Virus record (IMG/VR): IMGVR_UViG_3300046048_000634
Span: 1-45,788 of that record
DNA: 45,788 nucleotides
Reading direction: 5' to 3' (one strand)
Source: a virus
In this document: positions 8,601 through 25,693 of the stretch, in pieces
How the letters are laid out: every line of letters begins with the position of its first letter
Position numbering within the stretch: the stretch's first letter is position 1
The notes under the pieces: generated by a model
The model's input: only the letters and a program-made list of their open reading frames with translations
What the model was told of the DNA's origin: nothing
Database searches by the model: none
Made by a program: the position numbers and the translations under genes

Positions 8601-11600
8601 TGCCCCGCCTCGTTCATGGCGATGTGAAGGTATTGCTTCAGGCGGCCGCCGGCCGTGGTAGTGGCGCGGCTGCTCAGGATGTAGATCTCGACCAGGTCGT
8701 CCTTCGACAGATCGAGAACGGCCGCGCAGGTCAGCTCGTGATCGCCGTTGGCGCCAATGACCAGGGCGACCCCGGTCTTGACCTGAGTGCTGTTGACGCG
8801 CACGCCCACCTCGAGCGTGTCGCCGGTCTGCAGGCTCTCCGCAGTCACCCCTCCCTGCACGACATACTGGCCCGGCACCAGGCAGCGGAAATAGCCGTTG
8901 CCCAGGTCGATGCCGTATTGGGTCGCGCTGATGACGATGTCGCCCTGCTCGAAATCGACCGCGTTGAGGTTGATCGGAGTCACCGTGGCCGCGGAAATCG
9001 CCTGACCCGACGTGTGGTATGCCTCGGCCGACGGCCCCCCGCGCGTGACCATGAGGTAGTCGACGTAGACGGTCTGACTGGAGCCGGCATTCCGACTGAC
9101 CCGGATCTTGAAAAACCGCGCGGAGTCACTGATGTCCCGGGGATAGAGCCAATCGCTAAAGGTCTGCCAGGTATCGGTGGCACCCAGCGACGGGTTCGAG
9201 AGCGCCTGCGTGCCGAGCGAGGCCTTGTCCTTGTCGAAGGCCTCGACGGTGATCGTGGCCCGCACCGTCGTGTTCGTGCTCCGCACCCGCCACTCGATGC
9301 GGTAGAGCACGTCCAGCGAGACCGGTATGTAGGCGCTCTCCTGATAGCCGGTCGTGACGCTGTCCGGCATCTTGATCGAGCGCCCGCCGGTCTGCGCGAT
9401 CGTCGTCTCCTCGAGGAAATCGGTCCCCCAGGCGTCGGTCACCACGGTCCAGCCGTCGGGCGCGTTCGTCGCGATGGGAAGGGTGGCCTGCCCAAACTCC
9501 CCGTTCGGGCACAAGTTGCGCTTCTGGGCGTCGGGGTTCTCGTGGTACGCGCCGACGGTCTGCGTCGCGACCCGCACCTGGTGACCGGCGTTGCTCCGGT
9601 TTCCGCTCGAGTCGACGGCGATGAGCTTGACGAAGTACGTCACCCCGGGGGTCAGGCCATCGATCTTGAACAGCGTCGTGCGCCCGAGGTCGGCGAGCGT
9701 CGTCTCATCGGGCGTGAAACCGTCGCTCGTGCTGACATGGCACTCCGTCAGCACCCAGTCAGGGACCGGAGGATTGCCGCCCCGGGGGTCGTCGTAGACG
9801 ACCGTCAGGCTGCCCATGCCCGGGATGCCGACGGCGTTGGTCGGCTGTGCGTCAATGTAGAAGTCGTTCTGTGGGCCGACGCCGTCACGCGCTTCGAGCG
9901 ATAGCCAGGCGTCGGCTCCTCCGGAGGGCGTGCCGCGGGTCGAGATGATGGTTCTCGTGCGGCCGTCCTGAAACACGTGCTGGTACCCCACCACGGCCAG
10001 CGACTGGTCTGAGTCGTAGTGCACGCCATTCGCTGCGTAGGTGTAGTAGTCGCCGAGCTCCACCGGCCAGAAGTAGGGTTGCTCGGCAACGTGGTCCGCC
10101 GTCGGCTCCTTCAGGTCATCCAGGATGGCGTCCGCCATCGATCGCGCTTCCGTGAGGCTATCGATCTGACTCGTCGACGCCTCCGCGACTTCCATGAAGC
10201 GCCGCCCATACTTGGCGATCGACGCGCTGTCGTCGACCTCGACGGACGTCCGGTCCTCGGGCCTCTGTCCGTACTGCACCCGGACCACATTGCGGATCCC
10301 GGCGCGACTGATGCTGAGCTTGTTGAGCTTGTAGTACTCGTCGGCCGTGAAGGTGCGGTCGACGGCGAGATCGGTGCCAGCGCGCGTACCGCCCAGAGAG
10401 CCGCTGCCGTTCGCCGTCGCGTTGGTCATGCTCTCGCCGAACGTGATGCCGTTGCCGACGCTGCCCTTCGTCAGCCACTGGATGATGACACCGTCTTCCC
10501 GGCCGGCCCTTGTGCCGCCGAGGGTGCCGCCGCCATCCATCGTGACGTTCGACATCGATTCGGTGAACACGATCGAGTTGCCCGCGATGCCAGCCGCCGT
10601 TGCGCCGATGCGCAGAGTCGTCGGCGTAACGCCCTCGGTCTCAACCGAGCCGAGCCCGCCGCCGTACGCCTGGACGCGGTTCATCTGCAGCGCCACCGAG
10701 TAGGCGAGGTGCTGGATTGTTGTGGCGACGTTGGCGCCGATCTCGAACTCAGTGACGACAGCGGGGTCTGCGGTTGTCTTCGCGGTGTAGGTGGTCGAGT
10801 CGATCACCAGGGTGTCGTTGTTCGAGGGCTGGCCGGTGAAGGTGATCGTGCCTGAGGCGTGCGCACGGTACGCCTTCCACGCGATGAGGTTCGCGGCCTC
10901 GCTCCCCGTGTTGAGCATCGCGACGATGTTGTCGAGGGTGTCGTCGATCGTCGTGCCGATGTTGAACTCGTCCGCGCCGGCGCCGCTCGTCTTCGCTGTG
11001 AATGTCGTCAGGTTGACGTCGAACGTCTCGTTGTTGAGTGGCTGCCCGATCAGCGTGAGCTCGCCACGCGCCGCCAGCTGTCGTCCAGGCTCGAAGAACG
11101 TCAGCTGGAACGCCCCGGTGCTGGCATTCCAGCGATAGCGCACCTGGTAGCCGATTTGACGCGCCAGCACCTCGAGGGCAGCGTTGATCGTCTGCTTCTT
11201 CTGGATGTATTCCGCGATGTTCCAGCCCGGGGAGTCGGCCGACTGGAACGGTGTGCCGCCCGTCCCGGTGATGCTGTAGAGCGTCACTCCGCCAATGTGG
11301 TCGTCGAGGATTGCCTGCATGACGTTCTCGACCGCGTCATCGCTCGCCGGATCTGCCGGATACTTCACCTGCGTCTCGATGAAGCGGTCGAGGGCGCCGC
11401 CCTTGTCGCGGCAGCGCAGAACCATGGGCGATGCCTCCCACTCGACCTCGTCGATCTCGCCGCGGAAGGCCTCCACCCAATCGCCCGCGGCCGGCGCCAC
11501 ACCCTCCGGCATGGTCGCCGTCTCGATGTAGATGGGATGCCCGATGTCGATGAGCACCCCGCTCGCATTGAGCTTCGACGTGGTCCTCAGGGTGGCGAGG

Positions 11601-11816: not shown

Positions 11817-13325
11817 CTACGCCTCCATCAACTCGAATTGGGTCCGTTGGGCGTTGTTCACCCAGGCGCCGCCATCGCTGTATCCCAGGAAGTTGGCGTC
11901 CTTCAGATCGCCTTCAACGGTGTAGCTGTCCCCGTCCACAGCGCCGCCGCTGGCGCGCAGTCCTGGGAGATCGGGGAAGGCCGTCGTCTGCTCGTTTTTC
12001 CAGGCCAGCACCATCGCCGCCGGCGCCGCGAACGGAACCACGAGCATCGGCCCTATGAGGCCGGCGAACTGGGTCGCGCCGTTGTCGTTCCCGAGCCAGA
12101 GCTTCGTGAAAGACGAGGAATCGAGAGCCGCGGCGCTCGTGTCGCTATCGGCGAGGACGCCATCCTCGTACAGATACACCGCGGCCGTGGAGGCGTCGGT
12201 CTGGTAGTAGGCCAGCGCGACGTGGTGCCACGCGTCATCGGCGAGGCCCGTGTCGCCCGCGAGACTCGCTACGAGGGATCCGGCCGTGTTGTAGACCTTG
12301 GCTGTAAATCCGTTGTTCGTGCGCTCGAGCTTGATGTGGTTCGTCAGATCCGTTCCACCGCGTAGGCTCGCGATCGTCGTGGTTCCACTGGCGGATGGCA
12401 GCCGCACCCAGCAGGAGATCGTGAAGGACCGGTGCTTGGTGAGAAACGACGGGGAGAAGAGCAGATCCGTGGCGGCTCGCACGGATCCGCCACGCACCCA
12501 CGCCGAGCCCACGGCCTGTCGCTCGAGCGCCCAGGCGTCGGCATAGAACACGATGGCACTGCCGTCGTTGCTGACGACGTCGATATAGCCTGTGGCAGCC
12601 GCGCCGTTCGTCGTGCCCAAGACCTCGACCCGGGTCCACTGAGTCGCGGTCAGGGTTGCGTTCTGGCTGCTGACGAGCCCGATGTCGTCGTAGAGCCGAA
12701 CGGTGACGGCCTCGGCGCCGGCGTCGCCCTTGAGATACACGACGCCTGTGTAATCCGCGGCGGAATCAACCGAGACCGCGTCGGTCTTCGCTCCGTCACC
12801 GGATGCCGCTGCCGTCACCTTGAGCGACTTCGTGCCCTCGACATAGTTCGAGGTGTCAGCCGCCAGGACCCCGCTGACCACCGCCGCATAGCCGGTGGGT
12901 GCGTTCTCGGCATCTGAGGAGTCGCCGCTCAGGTTGTTCTGCGTCGACGGGAAGGGGTCGAGAGACCCCGCGCTGCCGAGCAAGGACTCGGACTCGCTGC
13001 TGCCGAAGTCGTTGACCAGGGCGCCATCTCCAGCGATCCCCCACCGGATCCCCACCGTGCTCGAGAGCGGGACGAGGCCCTTGCCACTGTAGAGATCGCC
13101 GTCCCAGCGCCAGTTGTGCCCGAGACCGAGCAGCAACCCCCGCAGGGCCAGCGCGTCGATCGCCTGCTGGATGCTCGAGGTGAACCTCCAGCGGTCCTTG
13201 ATGACTCGCCGGTCCCGCATCAGCGTGCCGGCAAAGGACCGACCATCGTCGCCCACGATCACCGGCTGGCGCCCACCACCGGGCACGACCGGGACGGTCC
13301 ACCCATTGAGCGCGAGGAAAGGCAC
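11817..13325 (-). CDS. Distal tail-type protein with carbohydrate-binding and LamG-like domains
   Basis: The 502-residue protein follows the tape measure gene, the usual place of the distal tail (Dit) protein. Residues 1-105 may form a Dit-like N-terminal fold. About 130-280 looks like a CBM-type jelly roll (SLKVTAAA, VVYLKGD, VEVLGTT). About 290-445 looks like a LamG domain (FTISCWVRLP, HHVALAYYQ, KLWLGND). The add-on domains suggest glycan binding during adsorption. GTG 13325 shares a base with the tape-measure TAG, and the next gene starts one base after this stop. Confidence 0.68.
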   Translation of the reverse strand: MPFLALNGWTVPVVPGGGRQPVIVGDDGRSFAGTLMRDRRVIKDRWRFTSSIQQAIDALALRGLLLGLGHNWRWDGDLYSGKGLVPLSSTVGIRWGIAGDGALVNDFGSSESESLLGSAGSLDPFPSTQNNLSGDSSDAENAPTGYAAVVSGVLAADTSNYVEGTKSLKVTAAASGDGAKTDAVSVDSAADYTGVVYLKGDAGAEAVTVRLYDDIGLVSSQNATLTATQWTRVEVLGTTNGAAATGYIDVVSNDGSAIVFYADAWALERQAVGSAWVRGGSVRAATDLLFSPSFLTKHRSFTISCWVRLPSASGTTTIASLRGGTDLTNHIKLERTNNGFTAKVYNTAGSLVASLAGDTGLADDAWHHVALAYYQTDASTAAVYLYEDGVLADSDTSAAALDSSSFTKLWLGNDNGATQFAGLIGPMLVVPFAAPAAMVLAWKNEQTTAFPDLPGLRASGGAVDGDSYTVEGDLKDANFLGYSDGGAWVNNAQRTQFELMEA

Positions 13326-18395: not shown

Positions 18396-18724
18396 AGATA
18401 GGCCTCGAAGAGCGTGTCGCCGCCACCGGGGGTCGACGCCTTCTGAGTGGCGATGACCCGGCGGCCGGCATTGGCGTCGGCGGTATCGTCGCCTGGCACC
18501 CAGACCTTCGACCCGCGGGTGATCTCGCTCTCGGTCACGATGACGTGGTCGGCCTGGACTTCATTGCCGTCGGGGCCCACCAAGGTCTTGACCTTGTGCT
18601 CGACGCGGCCCGGCATCGTGGTCTGAGCGCCGAAGCTCAGGTCGCCGGCGGGGGCGCCGGCGGCGATCCCCGTGACGGCCGCAACGGTCACCGTGTCGGT
18701 CAGGATGTGCTCCCAGCGACCCAT
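18392..18724 (-). CDS. Head closure (stopper) protein
   Basis: The product has 110 residues from ATG 18724, which overlaps the upstream stop as TGATG. The strand-rich sequence with MPGRVEHKVKTLVGPDG and VWVPGDD fits head-tail joining proteins of the SPP1 gp16 type. These plug the portal after packaging. The gene order adaptor, closure, gp10-like, terminator is canonical. Confidence 0.7.
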   Translation of the reverse strand: MGRWEHILTDTVTVAAVTGIAAGAPAGDLSFGAQTTMPGRVEHKVKTLVGPDGNEVQADHVIVTESEITRGSKVWVPGDDTADANAGRRVIATQKASTPGGGDTLFEAYL

Positions 18725-19677
18725 CAGGTGAGCCTCCGGTAGGTGTCGAGGGTACGGCGCACCGCCGGGGGCCAGCTGTCGGTGTCGCCGAGATAGGTGG
18801 CGCTCCAGCTGAGGAGCCTCTCGGCCTTGACGTTGGGGTCGCGCTTCTTGCCCGCACGAATCGCCCGCACGAGCTCGATGCAGGCCTCCTCGATGTCGTC
18901 GGGGAGGCCGCGCGTCTGCCCGGCCTGGGTTCCGCCGAGGGTCCCAGAGCCGTCGAGGGTCGCGTTGCTGAGCGCGGATGTGAAGATGACGGTGTCGCCG
19001 TCGGTGCCGGGCTCGAGCCACTCCACGACCACGGTCAGACCGACGCGCCAGGCGCGGACGTTCGCCGCCTCTGAGCCGGCGTTGATCGCGGCGACCAGGT
19101 TGTCGCAGGTCACCCGAACCGAGGCGCCGATGTTGAATTCGTTCGCCGCCGCGCCCGTGGTCTTTGCGGTGATGGTCGTGTTGTTGATGACCATCGTTTC
19201 GTTGTTGGCGGGCTGGCCGGTGAAGGTGATCGTGCCACGGGCCTTCGACTGCTCGGGCGTGTACCAGCCGCCATCGTAGGTGACGACGACCAGGGCCCGC
19301 TCGGTGCCGGCCAGGGGCCCCTGGGAGACGTCGTTGCGGTAGTGGGCATCCCAGCGCCAACCGTTGACGCGCGCGATGAGACCGGCCTCGGCGTTGTCGA
19401 TCGAGTAGCTGTCGGAATCGACCGTACTGCCGTTGTCGACGATGCTGGCGATGCTGTTGATCGGCGCGCGGTCAACGATCAGCTTGTCCCACCCGCTCGC
19501 CTTCGCCGTCTCGACAATGGCCGTGTTCCGGAAGAAGATCCGGCGGCAGTGACGTTCCATGGCGCCGGAGGCGGCGTTGATGTAGCGAGCGAGGGCAGGT
19601 TCAGCGCCTGCAGAGATCCCCAGGTCTTCCTCGACCGTTGTCACAGTCGTCAGTGCGTTGGCCGCCAGTTCGACCAT
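18724..19677 (-). CDS. Head-tail adaptor (gp6/gp15-like) with an inserted domain
   Basis: The helical connector core is seen at both ends. Residues 1-145 (LARYINAASGAMERHC, VDRAPINSIASI, VVVTYDGGWY) and 254-317 (LPDDIEEACIELVRAI, RRTLDTYRR) together make a protein of about 210 residues, normal for the family. Between them, residues 147-253 form an extra domain homologous to the two in the tail hub. The core normally runs from the Y-x-G-G-W strand straight into LP-x-x-I, so the domain sits in the loop between them. Confidence 0.8.
   Translation of the reverse strand: MVELAANALTTVTTVEEDLGISAGAEPALARYINAASGAMERHCRRIFFRNTAIVETAKASGWDKLIVDRAPINSIASIVDNGSTVDSDSYSIDNAEAGLIARVNGWRWDAHYRNDVSQGPLAGTERALVVVTYDGGWYTPEQSKARGTITFTGQPANNETMVINNTTITAKTTGAAANEFNIGASVRVTCDNLVAAINAGSEAANVRAWRVGLTVVVEWLEPGTDGDTVIFTSALSNATLDGSGTLGGTQAGQTRGLPDDIEEACIELVRAIRAGKKRDPNVKAERLLSWSATYLGDTDSWPPAVRRTLDTYRRLT
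18919..19239 (-). repeat. Third copy of the shared inserted domain (in the head-tail adaptor)
   Basis: Residues 147-253 of the adaptor read GTITFTGQPANNET, TAKTTGAAANEFNIGA, AINAGSEAAN and DGSGTLGGTQAG. These align with both hub copies. At DNA level, 27 bases at 19210-19236 are identical to 10825-10851 in copy B, which points to relatively recent exchange between the two genes. Confidence 0.85.
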
Positions 19678-20786: not shown

Positions 20787-22028
20787 CTACGCGGCCCAGC
20801 GAACGCCCTTGAGGCAGACGATCTCGTTGCCGACGCGACGGGCTGCCAGGTCGTGCTCCATGCAGACCTTGATCAGCACCTCACCGCGCTGGAACGTGTG
20901 ATAGGTGACGCCGCCTTGCACGTAGGAGGCGTGCTCCGAGGTCTCCACCTCCATCGTCTCGGTCTCGCCGATGACGACGTCGAAGAAGTCCGCGAGGTAG
21001 ACCTCGGAGTCGTCGCTCGAGCCGCTGACGTTGACGGTGTTCGGGATCGAGGTCGTGCGCTTCCAGGGGATCCCGAGGATGGTGCCCTGCATCAGCTCTT
21101 CTTTGAAGATGAAGTTGCTGTTGCTGTCGAGCAGCGTCAGGAACTTCCGCCAGGTCCGGTTGCTGAACAGCCACCCCGGACGGACCATCCGGATGTTGCT
21201 GTCGAGCAGCGTCTGAATCATGCGCCCGAGGTCGGCGATGATCTCCGGGGCCGTCGAACCGTCGGCGCTCGCTGCGGCGTTGGTCGCCGTCAGGATGTTG
21301 GCCGCCAGCGCCAGATAGTAGAGGCCTCGCGGCGTGTTGGCGGAGCCGTCCGAGCGGATGAAGGTCGAGTCCATCTTGACCTTGGCCGCCATGATGAGGT
21401 CGTCCTGGATGTATTCTGCGGCCGCGCCGCCGGTGCGCCGCATCAGCTGCTTGGTCACCGGCGCCATGACGTCGAGGATGCGGGTGTTGAGCTCGACATC
21501 GCCGAAGGTCATCTCGGAGACGGCCGCATTGGCCGCTTCGCCGCGATAGGAGGCGCTGGCGCCCGTGGCACCACGGTTGATGGTGAGCTTGCCGCTCTCC
21601 ATCGGCATGACGCGCGCGCCGCTTTCGACGATGACGGTCGCGGCGCGAAGCACCTCGACGAACTCGGGGGACGTCTCTCCGTCGATCAGGACGCCGCCGG
21701 CGCTCAACGTGCCGGTTTGCAGCGACTTCGCGATCGGGACCAGGTCCTTGAGGCGCGGACTGGCTTCGACGAGCTTGACGACCTCGGCCGGGTCGTTCTT
21801 GGCCTGGGCCAGGAGCTGCACGAGCGTGCCGAGCTGGTGACCGACCACCGCGCGCCGCTCCGGCGGCATGCGAGCATCGCGCCGGGCCTTGGCGGTCGTC
21901 GCCTCGAGGATCTCCTCGCGGAAGTCGTTCTGGGCCGCGTCGTGGCGGTCCTGCAGGTCCTTCGCGAGCTTGGCGATCTGCTCACCGCAGGCGTTCTCGA
22001 TGTGCTTGAGCAGGTCTTCCTTCTTCAT
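20787..22028 (-). CDS. Major capsid protein, HK97 fold
   Basis: The 413-residue protein has a charged coiled-coil N-terminal region (about 1-100), probably a scaffolding delta domain removed by the protease encoded upstream. The capsid body follows, with SAGGVLIDGETSPEFVEVLR, VMPMESGKLTINR, PVTKQLMRR, RPGWLFSNRTWRKFL and the C-terminal FQRGEVLIKVCMEHDLAARR. All are landmarks of HK97-type capsids. GGAG lies before ATG 22028, and the order protease then capsid is standard. Confidence 0.9.
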   Translation of the reverse strand: MKKEDLLKHIENACGEQIAKLAKDLQDRHDAAQNDFREEILEATTAKARRDARMPPERRAVVGHQLGTLVQLLAQAKNDPAEVVKLVEASPRLKDLVPIAKSLQTGTLSAGGVLIDGETSPEFVEVLRAATVIVESGARVMPMESGKLTINRGATGASASYRGEAANAAVSEMTFGDVELNTRILDVMAPVTKQLMRRTGGAAAEYIQDDLIMAAKVKMDSTFIRSDGSANTPRGLYYLALAANILTATNAAASADGSTAPEIIADLGRMIQTLLDSNIRMVRPGWLFSNRTWRKFLTLLDSNSNFIFKEELMQGTILGIPWKRTTSIPNTVNVSGSSDDSEVYLADFFDVVIGETETMEVETSEHASYVQGGVTYHTFQRGEVLIKVCMEHDLAARRVGNEIVCLKGVRWAA

Positions 22029-22037
22029 CGGTGACTC

Positions 22038-23240
22038 CTAGGCGGGTAGCTCGCCAGTGAGTTGGGCCCGCGCATTGGCGACCACCGTGGTCACGTGCTG
22101 GGCGATTTCTTCGGGGGTGATGTCGATCTCGTCGTCGTCGGCGAGCTCGAATTCGGCGCCGAGGGCATCGAGGTCGACCTCGTCGCCGCCGGCGACGGCC
22201 TTCGGTTCGAGCGGGTCGGGCTCGGCGTGGATCTCCGCGGGCTCGGCGGGGTCAGCCACGAGGTCCGCCAGGGAGAGGTGCGCTTTGCGCAGCACTTCGA
22301 GCTGCTCGTCGGTGAGGGCACGGCCGTGACGCTCGATGACGGTCACCAAGCGCCCAATCTTCGTCACCGCGTCGCTGAGGTGCTGGTCGATGGCTTTGGC
22401 GGCCCGCTCAATCTCGTCGCAGTCGGCGTCTTCGGCCGGGTTGTCGGCGCCCTCGGCCAGGGGCTCGGTGGTCGGGTCGTCCGCCGCACCGCCCGTCTCG
22501 CCGCCCTCGGTGCCGGCTGCCGCCCGAGTCACGAGCACCGAGGTCTTGGCGGCCGAGTCGAGGAAGATCTCGAGGTCGTCGGTGGGCACCAGCAGCCCGG
22601 TTTCCGGGTCGTCCCGCAGCGTCTCGGCGTAGGCCAGCATCGACTCGACGGCGATCCCCTTGGAGCGGGCGATCTGGAGGGCGTCGCGGTTCGCTGGCAC
22701 GGGCACCGCCGAGCCCTCGAGGAGCTCCTGGCGGAGGAAGTTCATCGCGAAGAAGCCACGGTCATCGGCGAAGGAGTACTCGAGCGGGAGGAAACCGGCG
22801 GACGTCGACTTGAGCAGGTCCTCGTCGTACATCCGCATGATCGTGTGGCCGAAACCCTCCCCCATCGGATGAGGCATGTCCGCGGGCGCGAACCGCACGT
22901 CGATGACGAGCGCCTTGCCAAACCGGGGAACGTCCCGGATCTCGGCAGCGATCGGGTCGCCGATGGGCGGCAGGTGGTTGTTGTGAGCCCACAGGAAGAC
23001 ACCGGCCTCGCGGAAACTCTCGAGGTCCCAGCCGTCCTGGTCGATGACGTCGCCCTCCCGATCGACGGAGCCGGTCGAGAGGATGAAACGACGGACGCGA
23101 TCCCCCGGTTCGCCAACGGCCTTGGCCTCGGCCGAGCGGCACGGGACCGCGAGGGCCACCTTCGATTCCGGGAGCTCGTCCTTCTTGGCGAGCTCCTTGA
23201 ATCGCTTGGACGTCAGTCTCTGGAGGGTCTCTTCGTGCAC
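22038..23240 (-). CDS. Prohead protease (S78-type) with C-terminal scaffold-like extension
   Basis: The protease domain (about 45-200) shows STGSVDREGDVIDQDGWDLE, LWAHNN (expected catalytic His), LKSTSAGFLPLEY and the GSAVPVPAN segment carrying the likely nucleophile. About 200 further residues are acidic and helical (from about 200 to 400), as expected of a scaffold fused to the protease. It should cleave the capsid delta domain after prohead assembly. The start is GTG 23240 with GAGG upstream. A motif-plus-TAGGGT candidate promoter lies about 90-125 bases upstream. Confidence 0.87.
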   Translation of the reverse strand: MHEETLQRLTSKRFKELAKKDELPESKVALAVPCRSAEAKAVGEPGDRVRRFILSTGSVDREGDVIDQDGWDLESFREAGVFLWAHNNHLPPIGDPIAAEIRDVPRFGKALVIDVRFAPADMPHPMGEGFGHTIMRMYDEDLLKSTSAGFLPLEYSFADDRGFFAMNFLRQELLEGSAVPVPANRDALQIARSKGIAVESMLAYAETLRDDPETGLLVPTDDLEIFLDSAAKTSVLVTRAAAGTEGGETGGAADDPTTEPLAEGADNPAEDADCDEIERAAKAIDQHLSDAVTKIGRLVTVIERHGRALTDEQLEVLRKAHLSLADLVADPAEPAEIHAEPDPLEPKAVAGGDEVDLDALGAEFELADDDEIDITPEEIAQHVTTVVANARAQLTGELPA

Positions 23241-23342: not shown

Positions 23343-23534
23343 TCAACCCCCGGCATACTGAACGCCGTTCCACGTCCCGCACCGCGGACATTTCCACGAA
23401 AACGGCGTTTTGAAGCGTCCTACGAGCGTTTTGCCGCACGGCGTCCCGGCGAGGCGGCCTTTTTTGTGCACGCCGCTGCACGCCGGGTTGTCGACGGTCT
23501 TGGCCGGGCGCTCGCGCTGGAGAGCCGCGCTCAT
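23343..23534 (-). CDS. Com-like zinc-finger microprotein (63 aa)
   Basis: The C-terminal half carries C19, C33 and KCPRCGTWNG, the Zn-binding pattern of Mu-type Com translational regulators. Here the first pair is split by a 13-residue insertion (GVHKKGRLAGTP). ATG 23534 overlaps the portal stop as ATGA. Mu Com activates translation of the mom DNA-modification gene by binding its mRNA; whether this protein binds RNA is unknown. Its 3' end contains one copy of the dispersed GGCRTTCAGT motif. Confidence 0.68.
   Translation of the reverse strand: MSAALQRERPAKTVDNPACSGVHKKGRLAGTPCGKTLVGRFKTPFSWKCPRCGTWNGVQYAGG
23357..23366 (-). promoter_or_regulatory. GGCGTTCAGT motif upstream of the prohead protease gene
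   Basis: On the minus strand the motif is followed after 23 bases by TAGGGT (23328-23333). A TTGACC also lies within the spacer. It sits inside the last codons of the Com-like gene. The context GAACGGCRTTCAGTA is shared with the site at 8251. Confidence 0.45.
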
Positions 23535-25693
23535 GCGGCACCTCGGCGTTCGGCGAGCTGCCGCAGGGTATCGATCGTGTCCGCCTCTTGCGATCTGAAG
23601 CCAGCCCGGAATGCCGACTCGGCCCTGCCGCTCCAGGAGTCGAGATCGTCCTCGAACCCCCTGACCAGGTAGATCTTCCGAGTGCCGCCCGGCGCCGCCT
23701 TGTCCTCGATCACCGCGTATGTCGTGCACCGGCACTGGATGTCATGGTGCGCGACACCCGACCCGCACGGGTACATGGTTTCGACGCCGTCGGAGAACCG
23801 GAACGCCTCGCCCAGCGCGACCTCGACCTGGTTCATCTCCTCGTGCATTGGCCGTGCACGGCCATCGAGCGTCGATAGCCAGCCCCGGCGGGACACGACC
23901 CCGGACTGCCTGTGCGCCTGGTACGTGGCGAAGTTGGCGCTGATCGCCGGCTCCGTCCTGGCGATCAGCGTCGCCCGGCGCATCGTCGCGTCGCTGAAAA
24001 CGTCTCGCACCCGGCGGCGCAAGGCGCGGTAGTCCTCGCCGGCCTCGACACCTTCGAGCAGCTGGGCCCGGATCGCCGCCTGGGTCGTTTCGTTGATGCC
24101 GCTGATCCGCTCGCCACCGAAGGCCTCGAGGTGCTGCAGCACCGCCGGGTTGAGCAGGTCGAATGCTGCCTCGATGCCGAGCTCCGCCAGCACACCATCG
24201 CCCCACTGCCGCAGCTCATCCTCCCAGAGCGCGGTCGTGCGCTCAGCTAGGTGCGCCGCGGTCACGGCATCCACGACCAGGTCGATGTCGCTGAAGTCGA
24301 TGCCGGACGCCTTCCGGGCCGGGCCGGCGCCGATCCGCTTCGACTCGTCGACCATCGCCTGGGTGGGCCGCGGCGGTGTGGGCGTCCGCGGTGGTTGCAT
24401 CTCGCCGGCGGGTCGTCGAACCTCGGTGGCCAGCATTGTGTAGGCCTCCCCGTCGTCGACGGGCTCGAACCCCTGCACCTCGCGCCATTCGTTGTCCTTG
24501 ATGGTATACGGCGCCGCCTTCATCGCGTTCAGTCGATGTTCCTTGTCCTCCGGTACTGGGCTCTCGTAGCCGATCAGCTTGCGCTCATCGAAGTCCGGCG
24601 CCACCTGAGCCTGCAGCGCCCCCATCCACCGTTGGCAGCGCGGCACCAGGAGCCATTGGGCAAAGATGAAGCCGGCGGCCTCGATGGTCGCCCGGTTGCT
24701 GTCCTCGATGACGCCGACGATTTCTGGAGGAATACCCCATGTCTCGCGCGAGACGCCGCGCAGGAACTTCCGGAGCTCGACGACGCCTTGGTCCTTGTAG
24801 CCGGCATCGAGCACGTTGACGTCGGCCTTCTGGCCGAAGAAGTGCCAGAGGAAGCCACGCTCGGCACCGCGGTGCTGCTCCTTCCACTGCTCCTCGAAGC
24901 GGTCGATCTCAGGTTGGCCGACGTTGTCGAAGGACACGATCCCGCCCGGCGTACCGTGATTGTAGAAGAACGCCTTGCTGAAGGTCGCGGCGTATTCGTC
25001 CGTATCGATCTCGTCGGCGAGGCTCATGGCGATCCCGGCCCCGCGGCCGTATGGGCTGAACGGATCGGAGATCCGGATCCGGAGGATGTCGCGCGCCGGT
25101 AACTTGCGCTCCGTGCCGGAAGTGATGCGAACCCGGTATGTATCTTCGCCCGGTTGTGGGACGTCGATCACCCACGTGGGGACCAGGGGCCAGAGCCGCA
25201 CCGGCTTCCCGAACGCGTCACGTTCCTTCCAGGCGATTGTCTCGCCCACGAGTTCGAGGTGCTTGCCCATGAGCTCGCGAGTCTCGAACCCGCTCATGTG
25301 GGTGTTGCCTGCGTCGAGGAAATCGAGCAGCGGGTCGTCGGGGAGCTCTTCGAGGTCGCCCGCGCGCTTCATCGCCAGGATGTGCTTCTGCCGCATCTGC
25401 ATCGGCATTCGCTCGAGCTTGCGAGACCGCACCGACTTGCCGCCGGCGCCGACTACCCGCGACACGGTGAAGGGGACGGACGCTGTGCTCTCGGCGATGC
25501 GTGAGACGACCTGCATGACCATCGGGAAATTGTTGGCCTGCTTGAGCATCTCTCGGACGCCGCGCCGTGGGGGAGTGCGGCCTGCCGCGACGGCGCCAAT
25601 GAAGGCCTGGCCCTCGGGCGTCAGTTCGCCGCCCTGCGCCTTACCTCGCGGAGCAACCCATCGCGCAATGCTACTGCGTAGGGACTCTAACAT
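23531..25693 (-). CDS. Portal protein fused to a MuF-like C-terminal domain
   Basis: Residues 1-430 are an HK97/SPP1-type portal (LMGKHLELVGETIAWKERD, DPFSPYGRGAGIA, NHGTPGGIVSF, RGVSRETWGIPPEIVGVIED), the dodecameric DNA gate. A proline-rich linker (about 431-445) leads to a helical part and a MuF domain (about 540-660). The MuF part shows RATLIARTEPAISANFATY, WLSTLDGRARPMHEEM and the terminal CRCTTYAVI pattern. In SPP1 the portal and gp7 (MuF) are separate proteins and gp7 is ejected with DNA. Here they are one 720-residue chain. Confidence 0.88.
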   Translation of the reverse strand: MLESLRSSIARWVAPRGKAQGGELTPEGQAFIGAVAAGRTPPRRGVREMLKQANNFPMVMQVVSRIAESTASVPFTVSRVVGAGGKSVRSRKLERMPMQMRQKHILAMKRAGDLEELPDDPLLDFLDAGNTHMSGFETRELMGKHLELVGETIAWKERDAFGKPVRLWPLVPTWVIDVPQPGEDTYRVRITSGTERKLPARDILRIRISDPFSPYGRGAGIAMSLADEIDTDEYAATFSKAFFYNHGTPGGIVSFDNVGQPEIDRFEEQWKEQHRGAERGFLWHFFGQKADVNVLDAGYKDQGVVELRKFLRGVSRETWGIPPEIVGVIEDSNRATIEAAGFIFAQWLLVPRCQRWMGALQAQVAPDFDERKLIGYESPVPEDKEHRLNAMKAAPYTIKDNEWREVQGFEPVDDGEAYTMLATEVRRPAGEMQPPRTPTPPRPTQAMVDESKRIGAGPARKASGIDFSDIDLVVDAVTAAHLAERTTALWEDELRQWGDGVLAELGIEAAFDLLNPAVLQHLEAFGGERISGINETTQAAIRAQLLEGVEAGEDYRALRRRVRDVFSDATMRRATLIARTEPAISANFATYQAHRQSGVVSRRGWLSTLDGRARPMHEEMNQVEVALGEAFRFSDGVETMYPCGSGVAHHDIQCRCTTYAVIEDKAAPGGTRKIYLVRGFEDDLDSWSGRAESAFRAGFRSQEADTIDTLRQLAERRGAA

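Follow-up and report, generated by a model that had tools for sequence, protein, structure and literature searches.

A putative tail hub protein encoded by a viral sequence of 45,788 nucleotides (IMG/VR record IMGVR_UViG_3300046048_000634; this whole stretch is called the window here) carries one complete copy of a ~110-residue module inside a second, homologous copy, the two halves of which lie on either side of it. We consider nested insertion the best explanation of this arrangement, and hold it with good confidence. A sequence-only reading of the window had placed such a nested domain at 10376-11068; our analysis confirmed it at 10373-11071, the earlier borders thus being right to one codon. 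An uninterrupted copy of the module is present in the head-tail adaptor of the same virus (Table 1), and no further open reading frame of the window carries it convincingly. Promiscuous accessory domains of phage particles are a known kind; a module not catalogued in Pfam that repeatedly inserts into itself is a variant of this kind for which open-access text yielded no earlier description.

Table 1. Module copies encoded in the window, and split copies in self-nested proteins of other viral loci.
Feature	Position in window	Strand	Description
Tail hub-like protein, 1072 aa	8597..11815	(-)	Single open reading frame; encoded downstream of the tape measure protein
Outer module, N part (hub residues 249-317)	10865..11071	(-)	HMM positions 1-69; strands 1-4, helix, strand 5; predicted EEEEHE
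Inner complete module (hub residues 318-439)	10499..10864	(-)	HMM positions 1-113, E 4e-40; interrupts the outer module at its beta-hairpin turn
Outer module, C part (hub residues 440-481)	10373..10498	(-)	HMM positions 74-113; strand 6 onward
Head-tail adaptor, 317 aa, one uninterrupted module	18724..19677	(-)	phrog_442 head-tail adaptor, E 1.2e-23, in two stretches
Adaptor module (residues 146-255, after ...YDGGWYTPEQ)	18913..19242	(-)	HMM match; structure predicted, pLDDT 83.9, pTM 0.77
L114 (Dit-like)			Positions 1-44, a complete copy, then helix onward; split at HMM position 44
L188			Split 27/32
L171, L178, L186 (one homologous family)			Split about 33/34
L073			Split about 46; contig ends soon after; probable case

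The hub was scanned with an HMM built from ten module members, the three window copies included, which divided the nested region into the three parts listed in Table 1; a broader HMM of 89 copies divided it similarly (positions 1-63, 1-117 and 79-117). The outer N part amounts to about 60% of one module. The borders of the two outer parts are complementary (69/74), with no element missing or doubled, and when joined by script these parts scored 62.6 bits as one whole module over the full model. The sequence-only reading would have fallen if the outer halves had matched the adaptor copy no better than chance. They matched it far better, with local scores of 210 for the N half (shuffles 31 ± 6) and 108 for the C half (30 ± 5); the rejoined outer copy scored 300 (36 ± 7) and the inner copy 238 (37 ± 6), and in none of these comparisons did any of 1000 shuffles reach the observed score. 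The outer C half is 45% identical to the last part of the adaptor module. Both hub copies terminate in G-G-T-R-A-G, as had been claimed.

The identity of the host protein is less firmly established than its anatomy. No similarity emerged when the hub backbone was compared directly with Mu gp44, and the term ‘hub’ is therefore based on the order of the genes and on weak matches to tail proteins, such as that of the related protein L013 to phrog_1887 ‘tail protein’ (E 1e-4).

A second hub in the nested state was not found among the collected relatives, so the exact arrangement rests on one contig, and its repeats contain many G, T, A and N residues. On these grounds one could suspect misassembly, a frameshift, or an accidental resemblance between low-complexity stretches. 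However, the hub frame is open throughout the gene, GC3 is uniform (0.86-0.93) over the backbone and the module parts, and at the DNA level the copies are only ~58% identical, indicating that the nesting event is old and the reading frame real. Together with the shuffling results and the independent nested cases in other proteins described below, this makes an artefact scarcely credible.

Comparison of the insertion site among related hubs revealed an empty, a single and a nested state. Six hub loci, comprising three isolate-genome records (L013-L015) and three Myxococcus contigs (L039-L041), have no module at the site and show the junction FSEPNRTNPTLAWAFGPGDY. The hub of L016 (IMG/VR 3300008012_000611; L007/L016), the backbone of which is 47% identical to the window hub over the N part, carries one uninterrupted copy at the same site. 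Deleting residues 249-481 from the window hub joins FFEPGRQ to ...VDRTFTADEYYKL, and the earlier expectation that excision would restore a continuous hub was borne out by the six relatives, which have that empty junction. Stepwise insertion predicts such a series. The arrangement also satisfies two criteria for nested insertion, namely that the insert is absent from relatives and that the host module is whole once the insert has been removed.

The L016 copy also provides the main support for a different pairing of the halves, in which outer N would belong with inner C, and inner N with outer C, as two interlocked domains. Its C half is 62.5% identical to the inner C half and 52.5% to the outer C half, and a MAFFT alignment of the two hubs alone places it with the inner C half, whereas its N half is 58% identical to the outer N half and 39% to the inner. 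The gap between the C-half similarities corresponds to only four of 40 residues, however, and the inner copy is one contiguous full HMM match, which leaves the interlocked arrangement very improbable. The mismatch of the L016 C half may be noise over 40 residues or an old conversion; neither conversion nor drift can be excluded.

An N-N-C-C order could also mimic insertion if a three-copy tandem array had lost the C part of its first copy and the N part of its third, or if two separate partial duplications had occurred, of the N half and then of the C half. Tandem arrays of intact modules are indeed common in the family (L076, L110, L012, L063 and L102), and copies without C ends exist: in the four-module array of L079:2782-4950(+) the first three modules have no C-terminal strands. 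This array, which may be either a truncated tandem or a multiply nested series, was excluded from the nested count, as no matching C pieces were found. Against a degraded array in the hub, the N halves of the two hub copies are only 39% identical, among the least similar pairs, and each is nearer to the adaptor copy (59% for the outer, 53% for the inner), so the inner copy is not a local duplicate; L016, moreover, has one intact copy. The borders complement each other not only in the hub but also in three other families, which are split at different positions, and random truncation would produce matching borders in four families with p about 1e-4. We accordingly regard the tandem origin as unlikely, although it is the strongest competitor of nested insertion.

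Together with the hub, these families (Table 1) show that the module has been nested in itself at least four separate times. The rejoined outer copies of the self-nested proteins scored 38-114 bits each over the whole model, and every split point maps to one of three loops: that following strand 3, that preceding the helix, or the hairpin of strands 5 and 6. The earlier suggestion that the module spreads within genes is supported by at least three further families with a whole copy in a split copy, and by the tandem arrays. In L189:2452-5082(+), a tail protein that, like L013, weakly matches phrog_1887, the strand 5/6 hairpin of the module is split by a Laminin_G_3 domain (LamG lectin; residues 319-461, E 1.5e-19). 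As this is the hairpin used by the inner module of the window hub, it looks like a general acceptor site. Separately, the inner modules of L114 and L073 end alike and in an unusual way (TTLGTTTLG and VTLGTTTAG), and in both proteins the outer copy is interrupted ahead of the helix, which hints at a common nesting route.

AlphaFold2 was applied to the adaptor copy with 46 relatives aligned, and the predicted order of elements was E6-11, E20-23, E26-31, E39-41, H46-59, E66-71, E74-79, H84-87, E90-93 and E98-100. The hub break maps between E66-71 and E74-79, in the hairpin turn of the predicted adaptor module, and all three classes of split point lie in loops of the model. In the model of the nested region, the outer N part was predicted as EEEEHE and the outer C part as E-H-E-E, with the inner copy (EEEEHE...) between them. 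The EEEEH start of the inner copy was obtained despite almost no aligned relatives, with block mean pLDDT mostly 83-89; the model as a whole reached pLDDT 63 and pTM 0.47, and much of the inner C half lies below 50. A single non-repetitive fold over residues 250-480, which would have refuted the sequence-only reading, was thus not what the prediction showed. The alignment for this model had been built to cover the outer halves and was anchored by fragments of the hub itself; other alignments misplaced the outer halves. The model is consequently consistent with nesting, and gives no independent proof of the N-C pairing.

Scans of IMG/VR with alignments as queries returned well over 100 loci. 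After removal of repeats, 128 distinct proteins carried the module, with one full copy in 110, two in 13, three in three and four in two; these proteins are a non-random sample, and the counts are not prevalences. An HMM search for host proteins had been proposed as a check, and it placed the module in at least eight types of virion protein. One HMM family is found in sheath (L036), tubes (L034 and L010), Dit (L114), a DUF2460 / GTA-type distal tail protein (L022), cement (L024), an Ad1-type adaptor with three copies (L012), adaptor (window and L006) and hub (window and L016), which supports the proposal that the module spreads between virion genes. It interrupts or extends these proteins, being internal or at their ends. 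In the DUF2460 protein of cultured phages the match fell in two pieces with a target span of ~208 aa, too short for the module, and these proteins appear to be without it. Among 146 genomes sampled from the phylum to which one Myxococcus genome belongs, two contained the module.

The module is not catalogued in Pfam: of 47 members, one matched PF17481 (best E 0.011) and two matched PF07196 (best E 0.046). A tblastn search of annotated phages with the nested region, the adaptor, the module consensus and a small module protein gave no match; by structure search, the fold was found in named phages, e.g., RcTitan. The PHROG collection contains it in PHROG 28344, a family of unknown function with 205 positions, of which ~85-195 correspond to the module and the first ~75 are unmatched. 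This family was matched by the adaptor (E 2.6e-9), the L016 hub (E 7e-7) and the window hub (E 7.6e-4), and also by L036, L024 and L018. It is unannotated and gives no information on mobility or nesting.

The source of the inner copy could not be traced. The inner copy most resembles the adaptor copy of this phage (46%), with the L016 copy next (45%). Identical-codon counts were at expectation for all copy pairs, as is the case with saturated synonymous sites, so neither the source nor the time of the insertion is recoverable and there is no basis for inferring a recent transfer or conversion. The possibility that the inner copy is a fresh duplicate of the outer was rejected, as the two are 37% identical, the outer copy ranks fifth among the matches, and there is no excess codon identity. 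A 27-base exact word common to the inner and adaptor copies was considered as a sign of recent transfer and set aside (identical codons, z 1.2). Derivation of the inner copy from either the adaptor of this phage or the outer copy has thus not been demonstrated.

Foldseek searches with the predicted module revealed its closest fold matches among the outer domains of contractile phage tail sheaths (PF17481, Phage_sheath_domII). The top match was the sheath of phage A-1(L) (8kee; E 5e-4, prob 1.00, TM 0.66), followed by Milano (8fop), 7-7-1 and Mu (gpL). At the sequence level, residues 118-174 of the Milano sheath could be aligned weakly with module positions 33-100 (profile E 0.24; hhalign probability 57%, with P 1e-4 for the comparison with this single protein). 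Sheaths consist of a conserved core with added outer domains, some formed from two regions of the chain, which are located at a distance from the assembly core and may contribute to stability or adsorption (PMC9230969). In contrast to Phage_sheath_domII, the window module resides in a hub and an adaptor and not in a sheath, and its family also occurs in Dit, tube and cement proteins and in itself, with a single relative (L036) being a sheath. Insertion domains are also known from the Dit of roseophage R4C, where they have been proposed to bind carbohydrates (PMC10276861).

Phage Ig-like domains resemble the module in being accessory and common to unrelated virion proteins, with a presumed role in adhesion or particle stability. 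Their promiscuity on phage particles was reportedly described by Fraser and colleagues in 2006. The module differs from them in fold, being mixed alpha/beta and sheath-like and not an Ig beta-sandwich; Ig folds were retrieved by Foldseek only at E > 1, and in the predicted module strands 4 and 5 are connected by a 14-residue helix. Ig-like domains are described as terminal or inserted once, and are not known to be nested in each other. Nesting is familiar from flagellin, in which D3 is inserted in D2 and D2 in D1. Flagellin outer domains were weak structural matches both to the module (FliC D2/D3, 8erm, E 0.11) and to the nested model (Helicobacter pylori FlaA, E 5.6e-3). Matches to Flagellin_IN (PF07196) were nevertheless limited to the two modules mentioned above, and the hosts here are phage virion proteins. 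In open-access text, the only literature covered, no description was found of this module or of self-nested homologous domains in virion proteins.

The top PDB match of the nested model was chain M of the tail tip of mycobacteriophage Bxb1 (9d93; E 3e-5, 265 columns), a structure said to come from Freeman and colleagues in 2025. Its length makes gp23 the probable identity of this chain; gp23 is a minor tail protein of 685 aa with a PHROG profile of only 329 positions. In gp23 (L201:6928-8985(+)) we observed N units at residues 268-327, 329-388 and 389-446, then C units at 513-554 and 555-595. The N units match each other far above shuffles, as do the C units, and PHROGs of sheath and major tail proteins are matched by the units as well. 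Read from the sequence, this N-N-N-C-C pattern suggests nested copies of an analogous fold in a tail-tip particle of solved structure; no sequence relation between gp23 and the module was detectable with hhalign (probability 0.1%).

We hypothesize that an alpha/beta domain (beta-beta-beta-beta-helix-beta, then beta-short helix-beta-beta) entered a surface loop of a module-free ancestral hub, and that a second, already diverged copy later entered the beta-hairpin turn of the first. The first copy would then fold from two separated segments of the chain, with the second copy at its outer end. In this view the module behaves as a mobile display unit of the phage particle that tolerates insertions, its own loops accepting further copies or another binding domain. 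By analogy with known accessory domains, the nested pair is inferred to protrude from the hub, where it would lengthen or vary the contacts of the surface, in adhesion or ring stabilisation. At the DNA level, illegitimate recombination that left no trace and transfer via homologous flanks were not resolved. More tentatively, and with rather more doubt than belief, self-nesting could be a general mode of growth of particle surfaces, in which loops of the module are favoured by its own relatives and by lectins and discontinuous outward spikes are built on hubs, distal tail and neck proteins, the Bxb1 tail-tip protein being a triple example in an analogous fold.

Virion proteins often remain unannotated because inserted accessory domains break up their core folds. 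With the module present in so many kinds of virion protein and yet missing from Pfam, defining it would aid the annotation of many of them. The empty, single and nested hubs also form a natural series in which to study how a domain made of two chain segments can still fold correctly around an insert with its own fold, and to ask whether nested surface display helps phages to meet new hosts.

Some minor observations were made on the hubs and on neighbouring genes of the window. The last ~130 residues of the L013, L014 and L015 hubs (GTCVAPWEPVLLGDGTELPAEMLKPGMRVLTM...) resemble a Hint/intein-type domain by eye; for L013, no Pfam match to such a domain was listed at E 0.1. Directly upstream of the window hub, 11817-13325 (-) encodes a 502-aa protein with a LamG match (E 3.4e-15) and a match to the carbohydrate-binding family CBM_4_9 below the cut-off, likely a surface-binding tail protein. 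Two adjacent genes at 20787-23240 (-) match consecutive parts of PHROG 617 (major head protein, 626 positions), the first half in 22038-23240 and the second in 20787-22028, suggesting a split protease-capsid fusion. The 720-aa product of 23531-25693 (-) matches portal proteins over residues 44-428 and head morphogenesis families over 507-667, and is thus a portal / head-morphogenesis fusion.
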